Positions 1,351-53,443 of a DNA stretch of 55,316 bases are shown piece by piece; within the stretch, counting starts at the first letter, position 1; every line of letters begins with the position of its first letter. The notes under the pieces are model-generated. The model was given only the letters and a program-made list of their open reading frames with translations. It was not told where the DNA came from and did no database searches. The position numbers were made by a program, and so were the translations under genes. The DNA comes from Lachnospiraceae bacterium (lineage in GTDB: Bacteria; Bacillota; Clostridia; Lachnospirales; Lachnospiraceae): NCBI GenBank assembly GCA_017518185.1, contig JAFWWB010000036.1, forward strand, positions 1-55,316. Reading direction: 5' to 3'.

Positions 1351-1983
1351 ATGTTCGCCATAAAACTTATAGTCTGCGCCCTTGCCGGCTACGCACTGGG
1401 CAACTTTTCCACCGGCATCCTCGTAGGAAAGCTCTTCGCCCATAAAGACATACGCGAAGTGGGCAGCGGCAGCTCCGGATCCACCAATGTCATACGCAGC
1501 TTCGGGCTCCTTCCCGGGCTGCTCACGGTAGCAGGAGATTTCCTTAAAGGCCTGGCAGCCGCACTGATCGGTCAGGCTCTCTGCGGAACCGCCGGGCTTC
1601 TGGTATGCGGCATCGCGTCAGTCATCGGCCACGACTATCCCGCGCTCTTCGGCTTCAAAGGCGGAAAAGGCATCATCACCTCTCTGGGTGTTATCCTTGT
1701 GATCGAGCCCTGGCTTGCTCCCGCTCTGTTCCTGCTTGAGCTCCTGATCGCAGTGGTCACAAAATACATGTCAGTGGGCGCGATCATCATAATGCTGCTG
1801 TTTCCTGCCGCCATCGTTTTTCTCTTCAGCCAGAACCCGGATTTTTTACTGCTTCTTGCAGGTTCCCTGGTGATATCGGCACTGGCCATATTCCGGCATA
1901 AAGCCAACATCGTCCGCCTTATACAGGGCAAAGAGAGCCGCTTTGAGGCTGAAAAGATCCTTAAGTCTAAGCGCCCCAGATAA
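1351..1983 (+). CDS. plsY: Acyl-phosphate glycerol-3-phosphate acyltransferase PlsY
   Basis: A 210-residue integral membrane enzyme that moves the acyl group from acyl-phosphate to glycerol-3-phosphate, the first step of phospholipid synthesis. Motif 1 (GSGSSGSTNVIRSFG, about residues 38-52) and motif 2 (GHDYPALFGFKGGKG, about residues 90-105) are intact, and several hydrophobic helices are evident. The start is supported by GAAAGGAG shortly upstream. A TATAAT box at 1317-1322 with a weak TTCCAA 17 bp upstream may be its promoter. The 3' end overlaps the convergent PAS-CPBP gene by 17 bp. Confidence 0.95.
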   Translation: MFAIKLIVCALAGYALGNFSTGILVGKLFAHKDIREVGSGSSGSTNVIRSFGLLPGLLTVAGDFLKGLAAALIGQALCGTAGLLVCGIASVIGHDYPALFGFKGGKGIITSLGVILVIEPWLAPALFLLELLIAVVTKYMSVGAIIIMLLFPAAIVFLFSQNPDFLLLLAGSLVISALAIFRHKANIVRLIQGKESRFEAEKILKSKRPR

Positions 1984-3013
1984 CGGTAAGGGAGAGCCCC
2001 AGGAAATAATGAGGTATGCAAAGTCCCCAGATAGTTCCCTGCCTGCTGTAAATAAATCCGAAAACGCTCAGAAGCAGCGTGGCGCCTATCATGAAAACCA
2101 GCCCCTTATGCAGGTGCAGTGCACCGAAATAAAGTGATGAGATGATGATGGCCACCACATCGGGAGTATTCTCCGGCAGCACCATCCTAAGTGCCCCCTG
2201 CATAGCTCCTCTTGTTATGAGCTCCTGCGAAAAGACAGTCAGAGGGTATATCGTTTCTCCAAGGCTCCACAGATCCCAGCGGAAAAACGGGGCTTCCGGA
2301 TCCATGACACCGTTTTTCCTGAGCAGCAGCTTTACCGTCAGCATTATCATTATCATAACAGCCGTAAGCAGCGCATTCGATAACAAAGACTTTTTCAGCC
2401 CCTTAGTACCAAGACCGAAATCTGCTACCGTCAGGCTTGTAAAGCGAAGTCCGAACAGTGTGCCTATGACGCCGAAGGTCATGAAAACCGTCGTCATATT
2501 CTCCGCCGTGAGCAGATTTTTCCCCGCAGCGATCCATATACAATAGGCAAAATTATAGAGCACAAAGATCGCCAGCATGGCTATGAGGATCTTAGTTGCA
2601 TCGAAATATCTTATCCTCAGCCGGTGCTCTTCAGTGATATCCGAAAACTGCAGTATCACTCCTATCTTTTCACGCTGATCCTCCGAAAACGCATAGGATG
2701 AGCTTATCTGAAGGAAAAGCTCCCCGCCCTCCGGCAGCTTATAGCGCAGCTCGCCTTTATGCACCCTGTCTTTATCGTACACGCTGTCCAGGACGAACTG
2801 ATGCAGCTCGTCATTTCCTTTGTCACCGTCCATCAACAGGGCATACTTCATGCCCGTATGTATGTCCTTCCTGCCCAGCAGTTCCTCCACCCTCGGATTA
2901 AAATACACAATGCTTCCCGAAGTATCCACGAGCATGACGGCATCCTTAAGATCCCTGGTGATCCTGGATACCATTGCCATATCAGTTCTGCCCATGCCCT
3001 CTTCAGCCATCAT
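1967..3013 (-). CDS. PAS domain-CPBP intramembrane protease fusion
   Basis: A 348-residue protein. About residues 15-140 form a PAS/PAC sensor module (AVMLVDTSGSIVYFNPRVEELLG; VILQFSDITEEHR). The rest holds several membrane helices and a CPBP (Abi, Rce1-like) protease core. The core shows a motif-1 variant QELITR in place of EExxxR, then FGALHLH, and a later PHYFLG histidine. CPBP proteins are membrane metalloproteases linked to prenyl-protein processing, bacteriocin immunity and transporter scaffolding; the substrate here is unknown. The start overlaps the stop of the upstream membrane-protein gene by 11 bp, with GGAGG-AAGGAG ahead, suggesting translational coupling. A soluble PAS sensor on a CPBP core is unusual. 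Confidence 0.8.
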   Translation of the reverse strand: MMAEEGMGRTDMAMVSRITRDLKDAVMLVDTSGSIVYFNPRVEELLGRKDIHTGMKYALLMDGDKGNDELHQFVLDSVYDKDRVHKGELRYKLPEGGELFLQISSSYAFSEDQREKIGVILQFSDITEEHRLRIRYFDATKILIAMLAIFVLYNFAYCIWIAAGKNLLTAENMTTVFMTFGVIGTLFGLRFTSLTVADFGLGTKGLKKSLLSNALLTAVMIMIMLTVKLLLRKNGVMDPEAPFFRWDLWSLGETIYPLTVFSQELITRGAMQGALRMVLPENTPDVVAIIISSLYFGALHLHKGLVFMIGATLLLSVFGFIYSRQGTIWGLCIPHYFLGLSLTVIWGA

Positions 3014-8645: not shown

Positions 8646-10436
8646 CTACACTTCCCGGGTCGCCTTCTTCAGCCACTCCCGCTCTTCCTCATTCATAAGC
8701 GGCGACAGTCTTTTACAGACCTCCGCGTGATATTCGTTCAGCTGCTTTCTTTCCTTAGGCTCCAGTGCAGCCACATCTATGGCATCCAGATCTATGGGGA
8801 CCCAGGTCAGAGGTTCAAAGGCCAGGAACTCCCCGTCCCCGTTCTTCTCCTTCTCAACACAGAGCAGTATGTTTTCGGTACGTATGCCGTGGCTGCCTTC
8901 CACATAGATACCGGGCTCATCAGAAACGAGCATCCCCGGTTCCAGCACCGCCTCATTCTCAAGAGGCTTCCATCTTATGCCCTGGGGCCCCTCATGGACA
9001 TTGAGCATATATCCTATCCCGTGCCCGGTCCCGCATTTGTAATCCTTAAGCAGCTCCCACACAGGTCCTCTTGCCAGCACATCCAGGTTCCTGCCGGTAC
9101 AGCCATGAAGAAATACAGCATTCTGAAGGGCCAGGCAGCCTGCCGCCACTCTTGTAAAGTCACGCTTAAGCTCTGCGGACACATCACCTATGGCAAGGGT
9201 ACGTGTCACATCAGTGGTCCCGCCTTCATACTGCCCGCCGGAATCCACAAGGTAAAAGCCGTTTTCGCCTATTGCAGCATGATCCTCTTCCGTGGCTTCA
9301 TAATGCATCATTGCCGCATTGGGGCCAAAGGCGCTTATTGTCGAAAAGGATAGACCGTTGCAGCAGGGCATGGCCTCACGCATGCCGTCCAGCTTATCCG
9401 CCAGCAGTTTTTCGTCCGAAGGCGTCTTTCCGGCATTCTCCTTCACATATTTCAGGAAGGAGGTAAGCACCGCGCTGTCCTTAAGATAGCTCTCCTTTAT
9501 AAGCTCTATCTCTTTTTCGGTCTTTACCGCCTTCAGCTTTTCGGAAGGGTTCACAGCTTCTATGAGCTTAGCCGAAGAATGCTCCAGAAGCCTTACTGTC
9601 AGATAATCCGTATACTCCGGAGATATCAGTACCTTTGAAGAAGGATCCTGCTCCTTAAGATCGTTGAAGAAATCCTCATAGTATCTGAGTACGATATTCT
9701 CGTCCCAGGCGTAGTCGCTGAGTTCCTCGGTGACCGCATCCTCTTTAACATAGAGGATCACGCTGTCCTCTTTGATCACCGTATAGGCATAGGCCACGGG
9801 ACAGTATTCGATGTCTGCTCCCCTGATATTGAAGAGCCACATCTGGTCATCCAGTGAGGACAGAATATGGGTATCTGCTCCGGCCTTCTTCATGGCTTCC
9901 CTGATACCGGCAAGCCTTTCCCTGCAGGACGCTCCTCTGAGCTCCTCAGGCAGAAGCCGTATCTCCCTGGCGCTGTCCGCCGGTCTGTCCGTCCAAATGG
10001 CGCTCACCAGATCCTGTCCTATACGCAGCGAAGCCCCGGCATCAGCTGCGGCCTTCGCAAGCTTCCGCCCGTCCTTCGCGTTCACCAGGCGCCCGTACAG
10101 ATATATCTTTTCCCCTGCCGATACGTTCTTTCTCACATATTCGTCAAGCTCGTCAACACCGGGATCTCCCATGCGCATCACGGTTATTCCGGAGCCTTCC
10201 GTTTCCTTTTCGGCCTGTACATGATAGCGGCCGTCAGCCCAGAGCAGAGCCTTATCCATGCCTATGAGCACAGTTCCCGCAGAGCCCGTAAAGCCGGTAA
10301 GGAACTCGCGCTCCCGGTAATGTGCGTTAATATATTCGGAACCATGGGGATCGCAGGTATAGCAGATGTACCAGTCTGCCCCTGCCGCCTTCATAACATT
10401 CCTCAGTCTTTCGATGCGTTCAGCTGCTGTATTCAT
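8646..10436 (-). CDS. pepP: Xaa-Pro aminopeptidase (M24B, long form)
   Basis: A 596-residue metallopeptidase that removes an N-terminal residue preceding proline. It has two creatinase-like N-terminal domains and a C-terminal pita-bread domain. The metal ligands are visible: Asp residues in VDSGGQYEGGTTDVTRT, His in GTGHGIGYMLNVHEGP, and Glu in SDEPGIYVEGSHGIRTENIL. The roughly 600-residue length matches the long eukaryote-like APP1 form also found in Clostridia. A GGGGGT lies upstream of the start. A GC-rich hairpin (about 10458-10497) precedes the gene; its role is unknown. Confidence 0.93.
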   Translation of the reverse strand: MNTAAERIERLRNVMKAAGADWYICYTCDPHGSEYINAHYREREFLTGFTGSAGTVLIGMDKALLWADGRYHVQAEKETEGSGITVMRMGDPGVDELDEYVRKNVSAGEKIYLYGRLVNAKDGRKLAKAAADAGASLRIGQDLVSAIWTDRPADSAREIRLLPEELRGASCRERLAGIREAMKKAGADTHILSSLDDQMWLFNIRGADIEYCPVAYAYTVIKEDSVILYVKEDAVTEELSDYAWDENIVLRYYEDFFNDLKEQDPSSKVLISPEYTDYLTVRLLEHSSAKLIEAVNPSEKLKAVKTEKEIELIKESYLKDSAVLTSFLKYVKENAGKTPSDEKLLADKLDGMREAMPCCNGLSFSTISAFGPNAAMMHYEATEEDHAAIGENGFYLVDSGGQYEGGTTDVTRTLAIGDVSAELKRDFTRVAAGCLALQNAVFLHGCTGRNLDVLARGPVWELLKDYKCGTGHGIGYMLNVHEGPQGIRWKPLENEAVLEPGMLVSDEPGIYVEGSHGIRTENILLCVEKEKNGDGEFLAFEPLTWVPIDLDAIDVAALEPKERKQLNEYHAEVCKRLSPLMNEEEREWLKKATREV

Positions 10437-10564: not shown

Positions 10565-11653
10565 TTATTCTTTCTTTCCGAAGATCTCCATGGTTGCAGA
10601 TGCGCCTATGCGGTCACAGCCGGCATCATAGAAAGAGGCAAGCGCTTCGGCATCCCTTATGCCTCCTGCCGCCTTGATCTTTACATTACTGCCGATATGC
10701 TCCTTCATGAGCAGCACATTCTCAAGTGTCGCTCCCGCGCTGCCGAAGCCGGTTGAGGTCTTTATATAATCCGCGCCTGCTTCCGTTACGAGCTCGCAGG
10801 CTTTTATGATCTCATCTTCATTGAGATAGCAGGTCTCGATTATCACCTTAAGTATCCTGCCGGCGCTGCATTTGCGCAGTGCCAGTATCTCTTCGCCCAC
10901 ATAGCCGTATTCCCCGGCCTTCATACGGCCGATATTGATGACCATGTCGATCTCATCCGCGCCGTTGATCATGGCGTTTTCCGCTTCGAATATCTTGGCA
11001 GCGGTAGTGTTATATCCCAGAGGAAAGCCGATGACAGTACAGATCTTCACTTTATCACCATATTCCCGCTTCACATCGCTTACATAAGCCGGAGGGATGC
11101 ATACCGAGGCGCAGCCCAGGGATATGGCTTCATCGCAGAGCTTCCGTATATCCGCCATGGTTGCTACTGCCTTGAGGTTGGTATGGTCCACATGGGAGAC
11201 CATCTCCGAAAGCCGTTCGCGTCCGGGGCCATCCTTTACGTTTGTATCCGCCTTTTCTTTCGCTCCGGAAAGCTTGAGTCTCATATCCTCCATCTGCAGC
11301 ACCTTTTCTATCCTCGAGAGCATCACATCGGCCTCGAAGGGCTTGGTGATGAAATCCAGGGCTCCCATGCGGAGGCCCTTCATCTCGCTGTCATTCTCCG
11401 TATCCGCGGTAAGGAATATCACGGGCACGTTGGCCGTTCTGGGATCCAGCTTTATCTGTTCCATGGTCTCATAGCCGTCCATCTCAGGCATGAGTATGTC
11501 CAGCAGTATGAGGTCCGGTATGGTCTTTTTGAGAAAGGCCAGCGCCTGTTTCCCGGATTTTGCCATGGAAAGCTGGTAGCCGGATTTCAGTACATCCGCC
11601 GCGCTCTTGAGATTAGTGGTGTTGTCATCCACCATTAAGATATGCTTCATCAT
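10565..11653 (-). CDS. deoC: Response-regulator receiver domain fused to deoxyribose-phosphate aldolase
   Basis: A 362-residue fusion. Residues 1 to about 125 form a CheY-like receiver with the acidic pair in MVDDN, phospho-acceptor Asp in DLILLDILMPEMDG, Thr in IFLTAD and Lys in ITKPF. After a short charged linker, residues about 145-362 form a full DeoC aldolase: VDHTNLKA, EIDMVINIGRM, the Schiff-base Lys in DYIKTSTGFGSAG, and IKAAGGIRD. DeoC splits 2-deoxyribose-5-phosphate into glyceraldehyde-3-phosphate and acetaldehyde. Both halves keep all the key residues seen. The ATG at 11653 overlaps the thrC TGA (ATGA) and was preferred to a longer frame inside thrC. Control of aldolase activity by phosphorylation is inference. 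Confidence 0.92.
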   Translation of the reverse strand: MMKHILMVDDNTTNLKSAADVLKSGYQLSMAKSGKQALAFLKKTIPDLILLDILMPEMDGYETMEQIKLDPRTANVPVIFLTADTENDSEMKGLRMGALDFITKPFEADVMLSRIEKVLQMEDMRLKLSGAKEKADTNVKDGPGRERLSEMVSHVDHTNLKAVATMADIRKLCDEAISLGCASVCIPPAYVSDVKREYGDKVKICTVIGFPLGYNTTAAKIFEAENAMINGADEIDMVINIGRMKAGEYGYVGEEILALRKCSAGRILKVIIETCYLNEDEIIKACELVTEAGADYIKTSTGFGSAGATLENVLLMKEHIGSNVKIKAAGGIRDAEALASFYDAGCDRIGASATMEIFGKKE

Positions 11654-13179
11654 TTTATCCCCAGGAAATCCAGCACCTCCCCTTCCATGCCGGATATCTC
11701 GCATACGTTATCATGAAGTACGGGAGCCGTAAGTATATCCTGAATTGCAGGGGGGATCTCCACTCCCGATATGTTCTTAAGCCTGTCTATAAGCTTAAGG
11801 TCGTCCTTTTCGTCAAGTTCAGGCTCTATAGCAGTGATCACGCTTCTGAGGAACTTATAGGGACTTGCCGTGGAAGCTATCACAGCCGGCGTCTCATCCC
11901 CGGTCTCAGACCTGTATGCGTCATAGACAGCGGCGGCAACAGCCGTATGGGGATCGATGACATAGGAATGCTCCTCATACATACTCTTTATCTTGTCCGC
12001 GCAGCGTGCCTCATCAGCGTATGCGCCGTAGAAATCGGAAAGCCGTTCTCTTGCTTCTCCGCTTATCTCATACCTGCCCTCACCGGAAAGAGCCTCCATA
12101 AGCTTCTTATCCTCTTTGTCATCACCGCCGCAGATACGGTAGATCAGACGTTCCAGATTGCTGGAGATGAGTATATCCATGGAAGGCGAACTGGTAAGAG
12201 TGAACTTTCTCTCGCCTTTGAACTCGCCGCTCTCCTCATCCAGGGTATGGAGCCTGTCATAGACACCGGTCTTAAAGAAATCGTAAAGCACCTTATTGGT
12301 ATTGGAGGCGCAGATAAGCTTTCCTACTGGCAGCCCCATGAGCTTTGCATAATATGCCGCCAGTATGTTTCCGAAGTTACCCGTAGGCACGCAGATGTTG
12401 ATCTTATCCCCGGCCTTGATCTTTTCCTCCGCCAGAAGCCTGGTGTAGGCATATACATAATAGACCACCTGGGGAACCAGCCGTCCTATGTTTATGGAGT
12501 TTGCCGAGGAGAACACAAAGCCTGCCTCCTTAAGGCGAGCCTTCGAAGCCTCATCCCCGAACATCTTCTTTACGCCGGTCTGGGCATCATCGAAGTTGCC
12601 CTTTATACCGATGACCTTAACGTTTTTACCGCGCTGGGTCACCATCTGCTTCTCCTGTACCACGGATACGCCCCCCTTGGGGTAGAACACTGCGATCCTT
12701 GTGCCGGGAACGTCTGCAAAGCCCGCCAGCGCAGCCTTTCCCGTATCGCCGCTGGTGGCTGTAAGTATCACTATCTCTTCCTTAAGGCCATTCTTCTTTG
12801 CCGAAACGCCCATTAGATGAGGCAGTATGGAAAGGGCCATATCCTTGAAGGCGATGGTAGGACCGTGGAAAAGCTCGAGATAATAAGCCCCTCCCGCATT
12901 TACAAGCGGCGCGATGGCCTCAGTGTCGAACTTGCTGTCATAAGCCCGCTCTATGCAGCCCTTCAGCTCCTCTTCGGTAAAGTCCGTAAGGAAGAGCTTC
13001 ATGACCTCATAGGCTACGCCCTTGTAATCCAGCGTCTTAAGCTCCTCCGGGCTCTTTTCAAGAGCGGGGATCTTATCAGGCACAAAAAGCCCTCCGTCAT
13101 CCGCCAGACCCTTCAGTATGGCCTCCGATGCCGAAAAACTAACGTCATTATTTCTGCTGCTGTGGTAACGTATATCCAT
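11650..13179 (-). CDS. thrC: Threonine synthase
   Basis: A 509-residue PLP enzyme converting O-phosphohomoserine to threonine. It has the N-terminal YHSSRN start, the PLP-binding lysine in GPTIAFKDMALSIL, the SGDTG loop and the glycine-rich NFGNILAAYYAKLMGLP. The length fits the long, fungal/enterobacterial-type ThrC. It is the first gene of an operon that continues through a 4 bp overlap into the receiver-DeoC gene. A GGAGAGGTG lies upstream of the ATG. Confidence 0.95.
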   Translation of the reverse strand: MDIRYHSSRNNDVSFSASEAILKGLADDGGLFVPDKIPALEKSPEELKTLDYKGVAYEVMKLFLTDFTEEELKGCIERAYDSKFDTEAIAPLVNAGGAYYLELFHGPTIAFKDMALSILPHLMGVSAKKNGLKEEIVILTATSGDTGKAALAGFADVPGTRIAVFYPKGGVSVVQEKQMVTQRGKNVKVIGIKGNFDDAQTGVKKMFGDEASKARLKEAGFVFSSANSINIGRLVPQVVYYVYAYTRLLAEEKIKAGDKINICVPTGNFGNILAAYYAKLMGLPVGKLICASNTNKVLYDFFKTGVYDRLHTLDEESGEFKGERKFTLTSSPSMDILISSNLERLIYRICGGDDKEDKKLMEALSGEGRYEISGEARERLSDFYGAYADEARCADKIKSMYEEHSYVIDPHTAVAAAVYDAYRSETGDETPAVIASTASPYKFLRSVITAIEPELDEKDDLKLIDRLKNISGVEIPPAIQDILTAPVLHDNVCEISGMEGEVLDFLGIK

Positions 13180-13287: not shown

Positions 13288-13293
13288 GCACGT

Positions 13294-14088
13294 ATGAAGA
13301 ACGAAACGGCGGGTGTGTTCACCTCAAAAAGAAAGGACGGTACCGTTTTTTACCGTTCCTCCATAACCTTCAGGCGCAAGCACATAAGCCTCGGCAGCTT
13401 TGAAGACAGCGAATCGGCCCACAGGGCGTACACCCAGGCCCGTCTTCTTCTCCGTGACATGAACGTGGGCGTGCTTGATTACCGCGCCGGTTCCCCACTG
13501 CCTTTCGAAAAATGGGTCTGTCTCGTCAACTTCAGGGATAACGGCATCTATATCGCCAATCCCATCTACATAATGCGCAAGATGTTCAATTACTATCTCT
13601 CACCGGAAGAGATACTTAAATTCGATGCCGATGAGCTGTTCTACTACAGCTCCCATAAGATCATGCGCCGCGGGAACCATTTCTTTGCCGCGGATTACGG
13701 AATGCAGGTTAATATACTTAACCGCTACGGCATTAGGAGCTACGCCGTAGAAGGCCGTGATTATTTCTTCCGTAACGGGGATGTACTGGATTTCCGCGCT
13801 TCCAACCTGGATATCGTGAACCGCTACATAGGCGTCACAAAAGAGATAAAGCGCGGTAAGGTCATCTATCGTACGCGTATCCATGTCCGCGGCAATTTTA
13901 TCGTTGGAGATTATGAGACCGAAGATGAAGCGGCCATCGCCTACAACAAGGCCGCCGACATACTCAAGCTGAAAGGATCCTCAAAGAATTACGCCAGGAA
14001 CTATCTCGAACATCTGAGCAAAGCCGACTATGAAGCTCTCTACTCGGCAGTTAAGATATCTTCTAAACTGAGAACGGCGGTGCTGTGA
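13294..14088 (+). CDS. Protein with two AP2-like DNA-binding domains
   Basis: A 264-residue protein. An N-terminal AP2-like unit covers about residues 8-55 (VFTSKRKDGTVFYRSSI; ISLGSFEDSESAHRAY). A second covers about residues 185-235 (YIGVTKEIKRGKVIYRTRI; GDYETEDEAAIAYNKAA). Just before the second, NGDVLDFRASNLDIVN resembles the end of an HNH homing-nuclease core, but the HNH histidines are missing. AP2 domains bind DNA through a three-stranded sheet; in bacteria they usually accompany HNH nucleases. This one looks like a nuclease-free derivative that could act as a regulator. The ATG at 13294 has no Shine-Dalgarno and sits at the predicted +1. The gene is divergent from thrC. Confidence 0.75.
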   Translation: MKNETAGVFTSKRKDGTVFYRSSITFRRKHISLGSFEDSESAHRAYTQARLLLRDMNVGVLDYRAGSPLPFEKWVCLVNFRDNGIYIANPIYIMRKMFNYYLSPEEILKFDADELFYYSSHKIMRRGNHFFAADYGMQVNILNRYGIRSYAVEGRDYFFRNGDVLDFRASNLDIVNRYIGVTKEIKRGKVIYRTRIHVRGNFIVGDYETEDEAAIAYNKAADILKLKGSSKNYARNYLEHLSKADYEALYSAVKISSKLRTAVL

Positions 14089-21699: not shown

Positions 21700-22545
21700 T
21701 CAGTCTAATCTTTCATAGAAGAAGGAGTTCTTCCTTCCGTAATTCATCTTCTGGTAGCCGGTTATCTGCTCGGTGGAACCGATAAACAGTATGCCCTCGT
21801 GCACCAGGCTGTCATGGAAACGGCGGAACACCTGATCCTTGGCATCCTCGGTGAAGTATATCAGCACGTTACGGCAGACTATCATGTGGTAATCCTTCAT
21901 GTAGTCCCTGGGCTCCAGAAGGTTGGCCTTCTTGAAAGTTACCCTGCTCTTTATCTCGTCGCTCACCGCATATGCCACCTTAAGGCTGGCAACCGGATCG
22001 GACTCGCCTATGGGCTTTACCGCATCCATCTCCTTATCGTTGAGCTTCCTGAAATACTTTGCCTTCAGATCCTTGGGAACTCCCGCAAGGGATTTCTCAT
22101 CATATATGCCTCTCTTCGCCTTCTGAATGATGGTGGCGTCGATATCAGTAGCATAGATGCGGATCATGTTAAGGGGCAGGTGCTTTGAAAGCGCCATGAC
22201 CAGGGAATAGGGCTCATCACCGGTAGAGCAGGCTGCAGACCATATCTTCAGGTTCTTACCGAAGCGCTGGATGAGCATCGGGATAACCTCTTTATCCATG
22301 AACTCCCACTGATCCGGATTCCTGTAGAATTCGGATACATTGATGGTGAAGTGATTGAGGAACTCCTCCATCGCATCCCTGTCCGTGGAAAGAAGCTTTA
22401 TATAAGTCGGATAATCCCTTATCCCCTTTTTGGTGATCAGCTGGTCTATACGGCGCTTCATCTGCGCTTCCTTATAGGCGTTCAGATCAACCTTTGTAAG
22501 CTTCAGGATCTGGTCTTTAAGATAGCCGTAATCGTTGACTGCCAT
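21700..22545 (-). CDS. cheR: Chemotaxis protein methyltransferase CheR
   Basis: A 281-residue SAM-dependent enzyme that methylates glutamates of chemoreceptors. It has an N-terminal helical domain, the SAM motif IWSAACSTGDEPYSLVM (about residues 100-116), YATDIDATII, and the VCRNVLIYF motif. It lies 17 bp after the rpsA-like gene. No receptor or other che gene is present in the window. Confidence 0.94.
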   Translation of the reverse strand: MAVNDYGYLKDQILKLTKVDLNAYKEAQMKRRIDQLITKKGIRDYPTYIKLLSTDRDAMEEFLNHFTINVSEFYRNPDQWEFMDKEVIPMLIQRFGKNLKIWSAACSTGDEPYSLVMALSKHLPLNMIRIYATDIDATIIQKAKRGIYDEKSLAGVPKDLKAKYFRKLNDKEMDAVKPIGESDPVASLKVAYAVSDEIKSRVTFKKANLLEPRDYMKDYHMIVCRNVLIYFTEDAKDQVFRRFHDSLVHEGILFIGSTEQITGYQKMNYGRKNSFFYERLD

Positions 22546-38259: not shown

Positions 38260-40398
38260 CTAATCCTCCCAGCGGATGGTTATCACGTCACCCGCCGCAA
38301 TGTTTTCCATATAATCGGCCTTATGGCCGTTCAAGTCCGTTACCAGTTTTGAGCCCTTTACGTTCTGCAGGTCAAAATCTATGAAATCGAAGACATCCAC
38401 AAAAACATAGGCGCTCTTGCCGCTCAGGGTAACCTCCGATCCGTTTACGCTGACTATGATGCTCCGTGGCACTCCGCCGCTCTTTTTCTTTTCTGCCTCA
38501 GCTGCTTTGGCGGCCTTAGCCCCTTCCGAAGGAACATAGCTTCCGTCATCCTCCGGCAGTTCATCAAAGGAATCGCCGCTCTCTTCTTCTGCAGGAACAT
38601 CATCCCCGGAACTGCTGTTATCTTCGGAAGTCCTGCTTTTTATCTCCTCAGCCTTAAGCCCCCACTTGATGGTGAAGTTCTCGTAAACCTTTGTATCCTC
38701 GTCTGCAGGCTCGTTGTTGACGAATATCTCAGTCCCCTCCTCCAGCAGTACATCCATGAACTCCCTGACCTGGCGCACGGTGTAATAGTCCTGCATGACT
38801 ATCTCGTCGCCATCCTGTATCTCATAATACTCGCTGCGGGGCTCCCCGTTCACCACCGCCACTCTGGGCAGCAGTATGCGGCTGTCGTTGGCCTTTACAA
38901 CGATCATTGACTTGAACTCCGGCAACTCGCCTATCTTCACATGGGCAGGCTCACCCACCGTGGACTCCTCAACGCTTATAACGTCATTTGCCCTAATGGG
39001 TGAATGCATGTCTGCAGGCTCGCCGTTTAAGCTGATCTTTGCAGCCTCACCCAGGGATCCGCGTTTGAAGGCCTTCTTGCCGTTGATGGTATAGTTGATC
39101 TCCTTCCCCCTTCTGGGGAACAGTCCGTCATTGGGGAAATTGGCATGCATCGCCGCATCAACGACCGCAAGGTTACCGCTGTCGTATATCTTGATATGCT
39201 CCTCATTGAAGCTGACATAGATAAAGTTATTGCTCTGCTCGTAATAATTCAGGCATATGCCTATGGGCGTGACCAGGAGGGAATCCTTTTTGATATCATC
39301 CTCCTTGAAGCGTATCCTGGTCATTACCTCTTCGCCCCGGACCGCAACACGCTCCGCCATGATGCCCAGATGCTCCGAAAGCTTTTTCGTATAGCCCTCG
39401 ATACGGCCGCCTCCGCCCACAACAAATACCGCGCTGACGCTCTTGCCGCCGTTAAGCTCCTTGAACTTGTCAGCCACCAGCCCCGTCATCTCCTCGATCT
39501 GTGGATCCAGCATCTCCAGCACGGCACTCTTCTCTATCTTCTGGGGAAGCCCCATGATATCCTTATATTCCACGGCATCCTTATCCTCGATGCCCCTCTT
39601 TATCTGTTCCGCGGTATTGAAATCCACCAGGCAGGCCCTGGCCACGGTCTCCGTAAGGGAATCACCCGCGCAGGGTATCATGCCGTAAGCAATGATGCAG
39701 CCGTCCCTGGTGATGCAGATATCGGAGGTACCGGCCCCTACATCCACAAGGCCGATGTTCAGCATGCGGTACATCTCCGGTATGGCCACGGATATGGCCG
39801 CAATGGGCTCCAGTGTCATGTTCACCACCCTGAGCCCCGCCAGCTCCACAGACTTGTAAAGCCCGTCCACCACCTCATCCGGGAGGAATGTGGCTATCAT
39901 GTCCGCACCGACTGTCCTGGCCTTATGATTCTCCAGATTTCCTATCTGGTAGCCGTTCAGGTAATAGCGTATGACGGAATTGCCCACGCAGTAGAAATGA
40001 AGGTCGGTCTTGTTTGTTGCGGTGAAATTGCCGTAGGCCTTTTCTATGCCCATGGAGGTAAGGGCTGCCACGTCTTCTGCAGTGATCTCCTTTTCCTGCT
40101 CCAGCTCCCAGTCAACGTGTACCTCTACGGTCTCCAGCACACGGCCTGCGGCTGCGATGCATACATCGGTAAGCTTAAGGTCAAGCTTGTGCTCCAGCTC
40201 ACGCTTGACCACGCCTATGGTATTGCCCACCTGTCCTATATCATGTATCTGCCCGTCAATCATGGCCCTGGTCTCATGCTCCTTCGATGCATGCGCCACC
40301 ACGTTGAAGACATCACCTTCACGGTATCCCACGATACCGACGATGCTCCTGGTACCTATATCAAGCCCGAAAACAAGATTGCCCTGTCCTTTTTCCAT
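38260..40398 (-). CDS. FtsA-like actin-fold ATPase with long C-terminal extension
   Basis: A 712-residue protein. Residues 1 to about 380 resemble FtsA: FGLDIGTRSIVGIVG (phosphate 1), VDVGAGTSDICI (phosphate 2) and VFVVGGGGRIEGYTKKL (adenosine). FtsA proteins are about 420 residues. The remaining 300 residues hold what look like three small beta-grasp-like repeats (SLNGEPADMHSPIRANDVISV; VVNGEPRSEYYEIQDGDEIVM; the final AGDVITIRWED unit). An acidic Ser/Asp/Glu linker separates the second and third. The C-terminal amphipathic membrane helix of classical FtsA is not evident. It may act in division or envelope assembly. It is followed by the MBL gene. Confidence 0.78.
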   Translation of the reverse strand: MEKGQGNLVFGLDIGTRSIVGIVGYREGDVFNVVAHASKEHETRAMIDGQIHDIGQVGNTIGVVKRELEHKLDLKLTDVCIAAAGRVLETVEVHVDWELEQEKEITAEDVAALTSMGIEKAYGNFTATNKTDLHFYCVGNSVIRYYLNGYQIGNLENHKARTVGADMIATFLPDEVVDGLYKSVELAGLRVVNMTLEPIAAISVAIPEMYRMLNIGLVDVGAGTSDICITRDGCIIAYGMIPCAGDSLTETVARACLVDFNTAEQIKRGIEDKDAVEYKDIMGLPQKIEKSAVLEMLDPQIEEMTGLVADKFKELNGGKSVSAVFVVGGGGRIEGYTKKLSEHLGIMAERVAVRGEEVMTRIRFKEDDIKKDSLLVTPIGICLNYYEQSNNFIYVSFNEEHIKIYDSGNLAVVDAAMHANFPNDGLFPRRGKEINYTINGKKAFKRGSLGEAAKISLNGEPADMHSPIRANDVISVEESTVGEPAHVKIGELPEFKSMIVVKANDSRILLPRVAVVNGEPRSEYYEIQDGDEIVMQDYYTVRQVREFMDVLLEEGTEIFVNNEPADEDTKVYENFTIKWGLKAEEIKSRTSEDNSSSGDDVPAEEESGDSFDELPEDDGSYVPSEGAKAAKAAEAEKKKSGGVPRSIIVSVNGSEVTLSGKSAYVFVDVFDFIDFDLQNVKGSKLVTDLNGHKADYMENIAAGDVITIRWED

Positions 40399-50536: not shown

Positions 50537-51604
50537 TTACTCCCAATTCTCAAGTTCGTGCCTGAGGGCATCCAGAAGCTCTTCCTCCGGCATCTTACGC
50601 ACTATTTCCCCTTTTTTGATAAGGAGACCTTCCCCGTTGCCGCCGGCTATGCCTATATCGGCCTCTCTGGCCTCTCCCGGGCCGTTCACCGCACAGCCCA
50701 TCACGGCAACCTTTATATCCTTCTGCTCCTTAAGCTTTATGCCCCTGACCATCTCTTCAACCTTATTTGCCAGGCCGATAAGATCTATCTTCGTCCTTCC
50801 GCAGGTGGGACAGCTTACCACCTCTATGCCGCCGCTCCGCAGCCCCAGAGATCTGAGTATCAGCTTTGCGGAACGTATCTCCTCCCTGGGATCCCCGGTC
50901 AGGGATACGCGTATGGTATCGCCTATGCCTTCGTTAAGTATGATGCCCAGGCCTACGGAGCTCTTGATATTTCCGCTGAGCAGTGTGCCTGCTTCCGTGA
51001 TGCCCACATGCAGGGGATAGGGTGTCTTTCCCGCCAGCAGCTCATGAGCCTTGATACTCATGCGCACATTTGAGGATTTTATACTTATGACTATGTTCTC
51101 ATAGCCGGACTCCTCTATCATCCGGACCTTGTCAAGTGCACTCTCAACCAGGCCCTCGGGAGTCACCCCATGATACTTGTCCACTAAAACCGCTTCAAGG
51201 GAACCGGAATTTACCCCAACCCTGATGGGGATGTTCCTGTCCTTTGCCGCAGCCACCACTTCCTTCAGCTTCTCCGCTCCCCCTATGTTCCCCGGATTGA
51301 TGCGTATCTTATCCGCTCCGTTTTCCACCGCAGCTATGGCACAGCGGTGGTCAAAGTGTATATCCGCCACCACCGGGATGTGTACGCGTTTCTTTATCTG
51401 TCCCAGCGCCACTGCCGCTTCAGGAGTGGGCACGGTACACCTTATTATCTCGCAGCCTTCCTCCTCAAGGGCGAGGATCTGTGCCACCGTACTCTCTACA
51501 TCCTCAGTGGGTGTATTGGTCATAGACTGGATGAGTATCGGCTCTCCGCCTCCTATCACCCTGTTTCCTATATTCACTTTTCTGGTTTTTTCTCTGTAAG
51601 TCAT
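50537..51604 (-). CDS. ispG: 4-hydroxy-3-methylbut-2-en-1-yl diphosphate synthase
   Basis: A 355-residue iron-sulfur enzyme of the MEP pathway, making HMBPP, the substrate of IspH. It has IQSMTNTPTEDV at the N-terminus and the cluster cysteines in SCPTCGRT and MGCAVNGPGEA. It overlaps the kinase gene by 4 bp and is 3 bp from polC. Confidence 0.97.
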   Translation of the reverse strand: MTYREKTRKVNIGNRVIGGGEPILIQSMTNTPTEDVESTVAQILALEEEGCEIIRCTVPTPEAAVALGQIKKRVHIPVVADIHFDHRCAIAAVENGADKIRINPGNIGGAEKLKEVVAAAKDRNIPIRVGVNSGSLEAVLVDKYHGVTPEGLVESALDKVRMIEESGYENIVISIKSSNVRMSIKAHELLAGKTPYPLHVGITEAGTLLSGNIKSSVGLGIILNEGIGDTIRVSLTGDPREEIRSAKLILRSLGLRSGGIEVVSCPTCGRTKIDLIGLANKVEEMVRGIKLKEQKDIKVAVMGCAVNGPGEAREADIGIAGGNGEGLLIKKGEIVRKMPEEELLDALRHELENWE

Positions 51605-52710
51605 GATAATGATGATAGCATATCCTGTGTTTCCGGTAAAGGAGCATCGGATATTTTGTTTTCCACAGGCAGGCCAAGCCCGCTCTTTTCGCTGTATATA
51701 ACGTTCCAGCTCCGCCTTATTATAAAACTTCCGCTGCTTTTAAGGTCTCTTAAGAACATCCATAAAAAAGCCAGCCCCAGAGGCAGTACTGAAAGATACT
51801 CAGCCTTAACCGCCGCATGACCATTATAGCGCATGCATATCAGTATGAGCGCCATAATGATGTCGGCCCAGAGAAGCGCTCCGTACAGAAACTCCGAAAG
51901 GCGCTCGGAAAGGGGTTCCCTGCCCGGCTTTAACAGCCTGAGTTCATCCATAAGCTCCGAAGCGTTCTGGGGCCTTTTATCGGGATCTTCGGAAAGGCAG
52001 CGGCTTATGAGCCTTCTGCTCCCGGCGCTCGTGCCCTCGGGACATTCCGAGGCAGCTGCCGGATGATAAGGCGGCCGGGACGGATCAGCCCCGGTGAGCA
52101 TATAGGAAAATACGCAGCCCAGGGAATAGACATCACCGTCTGCCCTGACCCTTCCGCCTTTAAGCTGCTCCGGCGCAGCGTAGCCAGGAGTCCCGGAAAG
52201 CTCCCTCTCGTCACCGGTCTCATCCCTGAGGGCAGTGCCGAAATCCAGAAGCCTCAGCTCGCCTTCCTCCGTTACCATGAAGTTCGAGGGCTTGATATCC
52301 CTGTATAGTATGACCGGACGGCTTTCGTGCAGCAGCTCTATTATGCCGCACATCCTCTTCATAAGGCCCACGGCTTCGGCCTCGGACAGAGGCACTCTTT
52401 CCTCCAGGTATTCCTTAAGACTCAAACCCTTCACGTATTCCATCACCAGGGCGGTGTATCCCTCACAGTCATACATATCCGCCAGGTAGGGTATGCGTCT
52501 GTCATCAAAGCATTTCATCCGCTCCGCTTCCCTTCTCAGGCACTTTCTGGCAATCCCTTCACTTTCGCCGAAAGCAAGCTTAACGGCAAAGTATCTCTTC
52601 AGTTCTTCATGCTCCGCCAGGTAAACGCAGCCCATGCCCCCTTCACCCAGCTTCTTTATCAGCCTGTAACGGCCTGTATTTTCCGGTATGATCTCCGGTA
52701 TATTCTCCAT
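51601..52710 (-). CDS. Serine/threonine protein kinase without PASTA domains
   Basis: A 369-residue Hanks-type kinase. It has KLGEGGMGCVYLAEH (glycine loop), FAVKLAFGE (Lys), YRDIKPSNFMV (catalytic loop, YRD in place of HRD), LLDFGTALR (DFG) and GYAAPEQ. After about residue 280 come two hydrophobic segments (ADIIMALILICM; LSVLPLGLAFLWMFL). No extracellular PASTA repeats are present, unlike PrkC. The start at 52710 is set by GGAGG upstream. It follows the phosphatase gene by 28 bp, a kinase/phosphatase pair. Confidence 0.92.
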   Translation of the reverse strand: MENIPEIIPENTGRYRLIKKLGEGGMGCVYLAEHEELKRYFAVKLAFGESEGIARKCLRREAERMKCFDDRRIPYLADMYDCEGYTALVMEYVKGLSLKEYLEERVPLSEAEAVGLMKRMCGIIELLHESRPVILYRDIKPSNFMVTEEGELRLLDFGTALRDETGDERELSGTPGYAAPEQLKGGRVRADGDVYSLGCVFSYMLTGADPSRPPYHPAAASECPEGTSAGSRRLISRCLSEDPDKRPQNASELMDELRLLKPGREPLSERLSEFLYGALLWADIIMALILICMRYNGHAAVKAEYLSVLPLGLAFLWMFLRDLKSSGSFIIRRSWNVIYSEKSGLGLPVENKISDAPLPETQDMLSSLS

Positions 52711-52738
52711 ATCCGACCTCCAAAACATAACGATCTGT

Positions 52739-53443
52739 TCAGCAGCATTTAAGATACAGCGCCGAGATATCGTCCTTCTCCCCCCTGCTCCTTGCGGCTC
52801 TGGCAAGCCCGGACAGCGCGCGCTGGGCCTCTTCCCGCCTTTTTATAAGCCCGGGGGACATAGCTCTCTGGATATCTCCCTCCTTCAACTTCTTAAGAAG
52901 CCCGTCGCTGGAGAGCAGAAAGGCCGAATCCCCATGGATACGCCCGGAACTCATATGCGGCGGGAAAAAGCTGCCTATACCTATGCAGCGTTTGACGCCG
53001 CGCTCATCCCCGTCCCTCAGTATCAGCTCCTTTATCCCGCGGCGCAGGGAAAAGACTGTAGAATCCCCGCAGGAAAAAAGCAGGTAACGGTTACCCACCG
53101 AAAGGAAAAGTGTCATGGTGGTACCGCAGCGCAGCATCCTGTCCAGCCCGTATTCCCGAAGCTGACCGTGGGTCCTGAAGAGCTCCCTCTGCAGGGACCT
53201 TCGTATCCTGCTCTTTGAAAATCCGCCCTTAAGGCTTTCCGGCAGTTCATCATAGAACCAGATGCTGAGGCGCTCCACCAGATAGCCGCTGGCCAGCTCC
53301 CCGCACTGTTCTCCTCCCAGACCGTCGCATACGGCGGCCATGGTAACCTCCCCTGCCCTTGTTTCCATTCTGTGAAGCGCCATAGAATCCTGGTTTTTCT
53401 CTCCCGGCCCCCTGTCATGGAGGGCAGCATAAAAAAGCACCAT
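52739..53443 (-). CDS. PP2C-family protein phosphatase
   Basis: A 234-residue metal-dependent phosphatase. It has RGPGEKNQDS, VCDGLGGEQCGELAS (metal Asp), FSCGDSTVF and KDDISALYL (last metal Asp). It is expected to remove phosphate from targets of the kinase encoded next. The first gene of the operon with the kinase, ispG and polC. GGAGG lies upstream. Confidence 0.9.
   Translation of the reverse strand: MVLFYAALHDRGPGEKNQDSMALHRMETRAGEVTMAAVCDGLGGEQCGELASGYLVERLSIWFYDELPESLKGGFSKSRIRRSLQRELFRTHGQLREYGLDRMLRCGTTMTLFLSVGNRYLLFSCGDSTVFSLRRGIKELILRDGDERGVKRCIGIGSFFPPHMSSGRIHGDSAFLLSSDGLLKKLKEGDIQRAMSPGLIKRREEAQRALSGLARAARSRGEKDDISALYLKCC

Follow-up and report, generated by a model that had tools for sequence, protein, structure and literature searches.

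Why should an enzyme of sugar breakdown carry a signalling receiver at its N-terminus, and does the receiver control the enzyme? This question is raised by a gene on contig JAFWWB010000036.1 of a Lachnospiraceae bacterium (assembly GCA_017518185.1), the 55,316 nucleotides of which constitute the window analysed here. On the minus strand, positions 10565–11653 encode a protein of 362 residues in which the receiver domain of a response regulator is followed in frame by deoxyribose-phosphate aldolase (DeoC), part of the usual deoxyribonucleoside breakdown pathway. By examining the distribution, neighbourhood, phylogeny and codon-level conservation of this fusion among its relatives, we hypothesize, with a probability of roughly 0.5, that the protein is an output-exchanged response regulator whose phosphorylated receiver adjusts the attached DeoC.

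The frame is uninterrupted from the ATG at 11653 (a second in-frame ATG lies at 11650) to the stop at 10565–10567, no stop separating receiver from DeoC; translation of the same positions on the plus strand meets stops and is meaningless. Receiver and metabolic enzyme thus lie within one frame, from which a single chain is predicted. The receiver (residues 1–120; 11294–11653, minus strand) is recognized by Pfam PF00072 at E 1.6e-26, the match covering residues 5–115 with 93 bits against a cut-off of 30.2, and its active-site set is complete: the Asp pair D9 and D10, the phospho-acceptor D52 (11498–11500), T82 and K104. These five residues are also present in all 26 unfused receivers of the genus that were compared and in all five other fused ones (one partial copy, L133, being left out). 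As all the active-site residues are kept, the receiver is very likely able to accept a phosphoryl group. A linker of about 30 residues (121–150; 11204–11293, minus strand), delimited from the alignment of fused proteins and the frames of unfused relatives, leads to the aldolase domain (residues 151–362; 10568–11203, minus strand). The latter matches NCBIfam TIGR00126 over residues 152–357 (240.1 bits against a cut-off of 117.3, profile positions 3–209 of 211) and Pfam DeoC over residues 155–341 (75.7 bits against 23.8). By alignment, D102, K167, K201, C47 and K137 of Escherichia coli DeoC correspond to D236, K298, K327, C185 and K269; we take the first three to be the catalytic Asp, the Schiff-base Lys (K298, at 10760–10762) and the second Lys of the aldolase. 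A preliminary description of this DNA, which had left the strand unstated, was accurate in reporting a complete receiver, a complete DeoC with its Schiff-base Lys, and an in-frame join between them.

Is the join real? Our surveys for other receiver–DeoC proteins were samples, consisting of 60 relatives, 140 genomes of the family and 398 genomes of the phylum. Among the 60 relatives, a query with the DeoC half found a match in 54 genomes (the window's own included), with a longer frame in several members of the genus. A query with the receiver half found one match each, with E no higher than 1e-38, in 34 of the 35 genus genomes. Seven of these 35 carry the fusion (G000, G008, G012, G015, G016, G019 and G023), so that the possibility, raised in the preliminary description, of its being missing from all close relatives gives way to six further genomes of common architecture. 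The 27 unfused regulators have open frames of 292–313 residues, except for one of 261 (L055) that meets a contig end; all of the 25 that were read keep a GGDEF-like part, that of L055 being cut by the contig end, and the last two were classed from their frame length (292 residues) alone. On these grounds no receiver-only version was seen among the 34 genus genomes. In addition, a profile built from the receiver alignment and run against contigs of 84,980 species returned 110 relatives, the best 80 of which were taken as loci; these 80 are titled as Lachnospiraceae or Bacillota bacteria, with ruminant gut samples named in many of the titles, and five are fused (L093, L095, L096, L097 and L133), L095 belonging to Lachnospiraceae bacterium NC2008. 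An artefact of sequencing, assembly or frame could appeal to the many relatives that are metagenome bins and to the fused copy of G016 (L019/L133), which runs off the end of its contig and shows a stop close to this edge. It is ruled out by the architecture common to seven genomes, including that of NC2008, whose record carries no mark of a bin in its title, and codon-level purifying selection over both domains in a five-species clade argues in the same direction; we give it next to no weight. In each of the seven genomes the fusion is the sole DeoC match. The window's own genome is 99.77% complete and the other six 72–99%; because three of the fused genomes are just 72–88% complete, it is mainly for G000, G015, G016 and G019 that this can be firmly stated.

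From what did the fusion arise? In the unfused members of the genus the order is thrC, regulator, pepP, and where the fusion has its linker the relatives carry a GGDEF-like domain of about 160 residues, followed by a stop and the start of deoC. In 11 unfused members deoC lies between regulator and pepP, directly downstream of the regulator; in 13 other unfused loci that were read it does not lie there. Pfam detects the GGDEF domain at E 1.3e-13, 2.3e-17, 4.8e-19 and 1.2e-22 in four genus members and at 4e-40 to 3.5e-42 in three regulators outside the genus, and detects none in the fusion, on the receiver part of which the NCBIfam PleD model is the best-scoring, far under its own cut-off (110.5 of 474 bits). 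The motif GG[DE]EF is found by plain text search in none of the 26 unfused genus regulators as against 43 of 49 outside; by alignment it is canonical in 0 of 26 as against 42 of 48, the alignment being doubtful at the motif for L102, L103 and L130 of the 26, which leaves the text search unaffected. Outside the genus, thrC stands directly upstream, at 118 bases or fewer, in 47 of 49 loci. Among 246 genomes of the order, the closest receivers comprise nine matches besides the window at E 1e-34, of which only L071, from another genus of the family, is thrC-linked; its GGDEF motif is intact. The loss of the motif within the genus, set against its retention outside, points clearly to a thrC-linked receiver-GGDEF diguanylate cyclase as the ancestor, its catalytic signature having been lost in the genus. 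The fusion then arose by loss of the non-canonical GGDEF domain between two neighbouring genes: the GGDEF-like part was deleted and the receiver joined in frame to the next gene, deoC, at least one other lineage having done so independently.

Such a history need not have had functional consequences. Deletion of a dispensable domain could simply have joined two genes of an operon, both products keeping their old jobs with no cross-regulation, and the position of deoC directly downstream of the regulator in the 11 unfused members makes the step mechanically easy. The number of origins bears on this explanation. In a maximum-likelihood tree built from thrC joined to pepP (LG+G4, 52 rows), the seven fused rows fall at three separate points (the window, NC2008 and the five-species clade), three changes being forced by well-supported branches. 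The approximately unbiased (AU) test rejects a single clade of all seven (p 8.5e-5) and also a grouping of the window with the five-species clade (p 4.6e-5). The DeoC tree, built from ungapped, realigned rows with each fused row trimmed at a set fraction of its length, agrees in direction, with three changes of which two are forced, and a single clade is again rejected (AU p 0.011). Two origins of the fusion are secure under these models and three are likely; a single origin followed by losses would have the lost GGDEF-like domain regained, for example by recombination. At least two and probably three origins, and the keeping of the fusion across a five-species clade, argue against a merely tolerated join. 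So do the loss of the GGDEF-like part only along with fusion, with no receiver-only form among the 34 genomes, and the finding, given below, that this part is no decaying remnant. The coupling of loss to fusion is likewise an argument against neutral change alone.

In the five-species clade, the two halves of the protein have both clearly remained under selection since they were joined. The ratio of nonsynonymous to synonymous substitution rates (dN/dS) is 0.016–0.051 for the receiver in all ten pairs, 0.058–0.100 for DeoC (ten pairs), that is, above the receiver, and 0.086–0.485 for the linker in the nine of ten pairs that were computable. The other 11 of the 21 fused pairs, which include the window or NC2008, were left out, dS being saturated or undefined in most. 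Among unfused relatives the ratio is 0–0.024 for the receiver (nine pairs), 0–0.025 for the GGDEF-like part (eight of the nine computable) and 0.030–0.062 for stand-alone DeoC (three pairs). All these ratios are rough, as dS comes close to 1 or exceeds it in several cases. Unfused regulators of the genus (for example L077:5001–5879) therefore hold a signature-less GGDEF-like domain under purifying selection, likely a non-catalytic signalling domain. After fusion the receiver changed in parallel at few sites: a new residue occurs in two fused lineages at only three positions (20, 23 and 95), the lineages agreeing on the residue at just one, and this is too little to be read as convergence.

This pattern of constraint lends itself to another explanation, in which DeoC is a scaffold. 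The receiver would act through protein–protein contacts, as single-domain regulators do, and would need a folded, self-associating C-terminal partner: the GGDEF-like domain in most of the genus and, in the fused lineages, DeoC, which we take to self-associate, the aldolase itself remaining unregulated. Across 120 pairs of the 16 loci that have all four genes, the receiver's median identity (84) is above that of its neighbours (thrC 70, DeoC 67, pepP 53), as the scaffold would lead one to expect, and the GGDEF motif is missing from every unfused regulator compared, the domain being still constrained. The absence of a receiver-only version fits it too, and the coupled loss and fusion fit a scaffold equally with control of the aldolase. 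Against this, fused loci show slightly lower conservation of the receiver than unfused ones (median identity 79 in 15 fused pairs versus 91 in 45 unfused pairs, where thrC has 72 versus 71 and pepP 53 versus 59), as though its contacts had changed. On balance we regard the scaffold as rather unlikely.

How often DeoC acquires partners elsewhere is relevant to the tolerated join. In the 140 family genomes, four DeoC loci outside the window with frames of at least 322 residues were fetched, and none of the four has a receiver. In the wider phylum, the matches listed include 12 frames of at least 324 residues; none of the 11 that were fetched (all except G502:C56) has a receiver, and four of these 11, scanned with Pfam, show DeoC alone. 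At least two of the 140 family genomes (L169 of G740 and L170 of G679) have phosphopentomutase (DeoB) fused in frame to DeoC, and in L171 (G797) DeoC is continued in frame by about 190 extra C-terminal residues. This extra part has no NCBIfam match at E 1e-10; we presume that it resembles a DUF523-type protein. The DeoB–DeoC fusions, together with a linker that is little conserved, favour a join that was tolerated and nothing more; set against the repeated origins and the constraint described above, this explanation is in our view the less probable of the two, and improbable in itself.

The reading that we prefer is accordingly one of changed output. Through the fusion, the cell's only detected deoxyribose-phosphate aldolase has gained an intact receiver; D52 would be phosphorylated by an unlinked histidine kinase or by a small phosphodonor, and dimerisation or allostery of the receiver would then tune the assembly or activity of DeoC and hence deoxyribonucleoside breakdown, a pathway indicated in the window's own genome by the presence of DeoB and pyrimidine-nucleoside phosphorylase. 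An effect of phosphorylation on how the attached aldolase assembles or works seems more likely than any single alternative, and such control is plausible from the sequences, the phosphorylation and any effect on the aldolase being the steps that we infer. A fuller claim, that a two-component receiver directly controls DeoC and that two or three lineages of the genus independently switched the output of the same regulator from a defunct second-messenger domain to a catabolic enzyme, we advance only tentatively, at a little short of even odds. The suggestion of a phospho-controlled aldolase in the preliminary description thus stands in part: the protein is real, conserved and repeatedly evolved, and an intact phospho-acceptor under purifying selection fits the suggestion, in which the aldolase would respond to the phosphorylation. 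The picture is altered by the receiver's belonging to a genus-wide regulator that in most relatives stands apart from DeoC, so that its principal function may well lie elsewhere.

Several points weigh against our preferred reading. The receiver is more constrained when unfused, so that another role must account for at least part of its constraint; among the four genes compared it also shows the highest conservation, and it persists where deoC is found at some other place, which again indicates a role of its own. As dS is saturated for the lineages of the window and NC2008, selection on the receiver after fusion is measured in the five-species clade only. The linkers of the three fused lineages differ in length and have little sequence in common, which does not suggest tight mechanical coupling. 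The DeoB–DeoC fusions indicate that DeoC tolerates an N-terminal partner without any signalling. A grouping of NC2008 with the five-species clade is not rejected (AU p 0.106), so that a separate origin in NC2008 is not secured. Finally, no histidine kinase was noticed beside the fusion by eye among window frames of at least 150 residues, part of which were scanned; a 2025 review (PMC12471899) regards orphan regulators as universal among bacteria.

The surroundings of the gene are those expected from its relatives, the order being thrC, response regulator, (deoC), pepP. Upstream on the minus strand lies thrC (11650–13179; TIGR00260), a conserved companion of the regulator both within the genus and outside it, and downstream, also on the minus strand, an M24 aminopeptidase-P-like gene, pepP (8646–10436; Pfam), its conserved neighbour in the genus. 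The thrC stop TGA (11652–11650) overlaps the ATG ATG start of the fusion, with GGGG five bases upstream, and the translational coupling to thrC proposed in the preliminary description is plausible from this arrangement. Separate translation of DeoC was considered and judged improbable: the linkers of NC2008 and L097 contain no ATG, GTG or TTG from the end of the receiver to the DHT motif at the start of DeoC, those of L093, L096 and L021 contain GTG codons at differing positions, and in the window GGAG directly abuts M151, a poor spacing that makes internal initiation there unlikely.

Elsewhere in the window, a PAS domain is fused to an Rce1-like membrane protease domain (1967–3013), an unusual-looking combination of sensor and protease, and 13291–14088 encodes a protein with a weak AP2-domain match, under the Pfam cut-off. 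A CheR methyltransferase (21700–22545) is flanked by frames that by eye are ribosomal-S1-like and exonuclease-like; no chemotaxis neighbours were noticed. An FtsA/PilM-like protein of 712 residues (38260–40398) has a long C-terminal extension. At 51601–53443 a protein kinase frame adjoins that of a PP2C-type phosphatase, and the end of the kinase frame overlaps by four bases the start of a frame that by eye is ispG-like.

What does the locus mean for the evolution of signalling? It illustrates one route to new outputs, in which a second-messenger domain loses its signature, persists under constraint as a non-canonical part, and later gives way, more than once within a genus, to the metabolic enzyme encoded next to it. 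In gut bacteria related to rumen Lachnospiraceae, signalling may now act directly on an enzyme of sugar breakdown; if so, these lineages would form a natural replicate experiment in the exchange of output domains, with the breakdown of a DNA-derived sugar placed under signal control. Because fused and unfused species occur in one genus, including the strain-titled record NC2008, the effect of tethering the receiver is directly comparable between them. DeoC is also a widely used biocatalyst, so that a natural form switchable by phosphorylation would also matter for applications.

How does the fusion compare with systems already described? It resembles the PleD-like receiver-GGDEF cyclases, in that its receiver descends from that kind and the thrC-linked regulators outside the genus are mostly motif-intact; it differs from them in having no GGDEF domain, and its unfused orthologues in the genus differ in having no motif (0 of 26). 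With the short bacterial DeoC proteins (closest solved chains 5dbu and 8qps) it has in common a complete domain and the catalytic residues, and it differs by its N-terminal receiver; the 60 listed of 317 solved-chain matches each consist of one matched stretch, and among these 60 no chain with both domains was seen. The DeoB–DeoC fusions of other genera (L169 and L170) likewise place an N-terminal partner and DeoC in one chain, their partner being an enzyme of the pathway and the one here a signalling domain. We found no description of a receiver–DeoC protein in the open-access library that was searched. The enzymatic outputs named in the passages of the 2025 review that were consulted are CheB and a c-di-GMP phosphodiesterase, with no mention there of an aldolase, a metabolic enzyme or deoC (PMC12471899). 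Nevertheless, the statement in the preliminary description that no system of this kind had been described was too strong: PMC5847659 reports multiple bacterial instances of receivers attached to standard metabolic enzymes, and archaeal fusions of this type with narrow distributions. The present protein is like these metabolic-enzyme response regulators in joining a receiver to a standard metabolic enzyme and in its narrow phyletic distribution, and unlike them in its partner and its output-exchange history, neither of which is named in the section concerned. The combination of receiver and metabolic enzyme has been described before in broad terms; DeoC as the partner was absent from the descriptions that our search covered.
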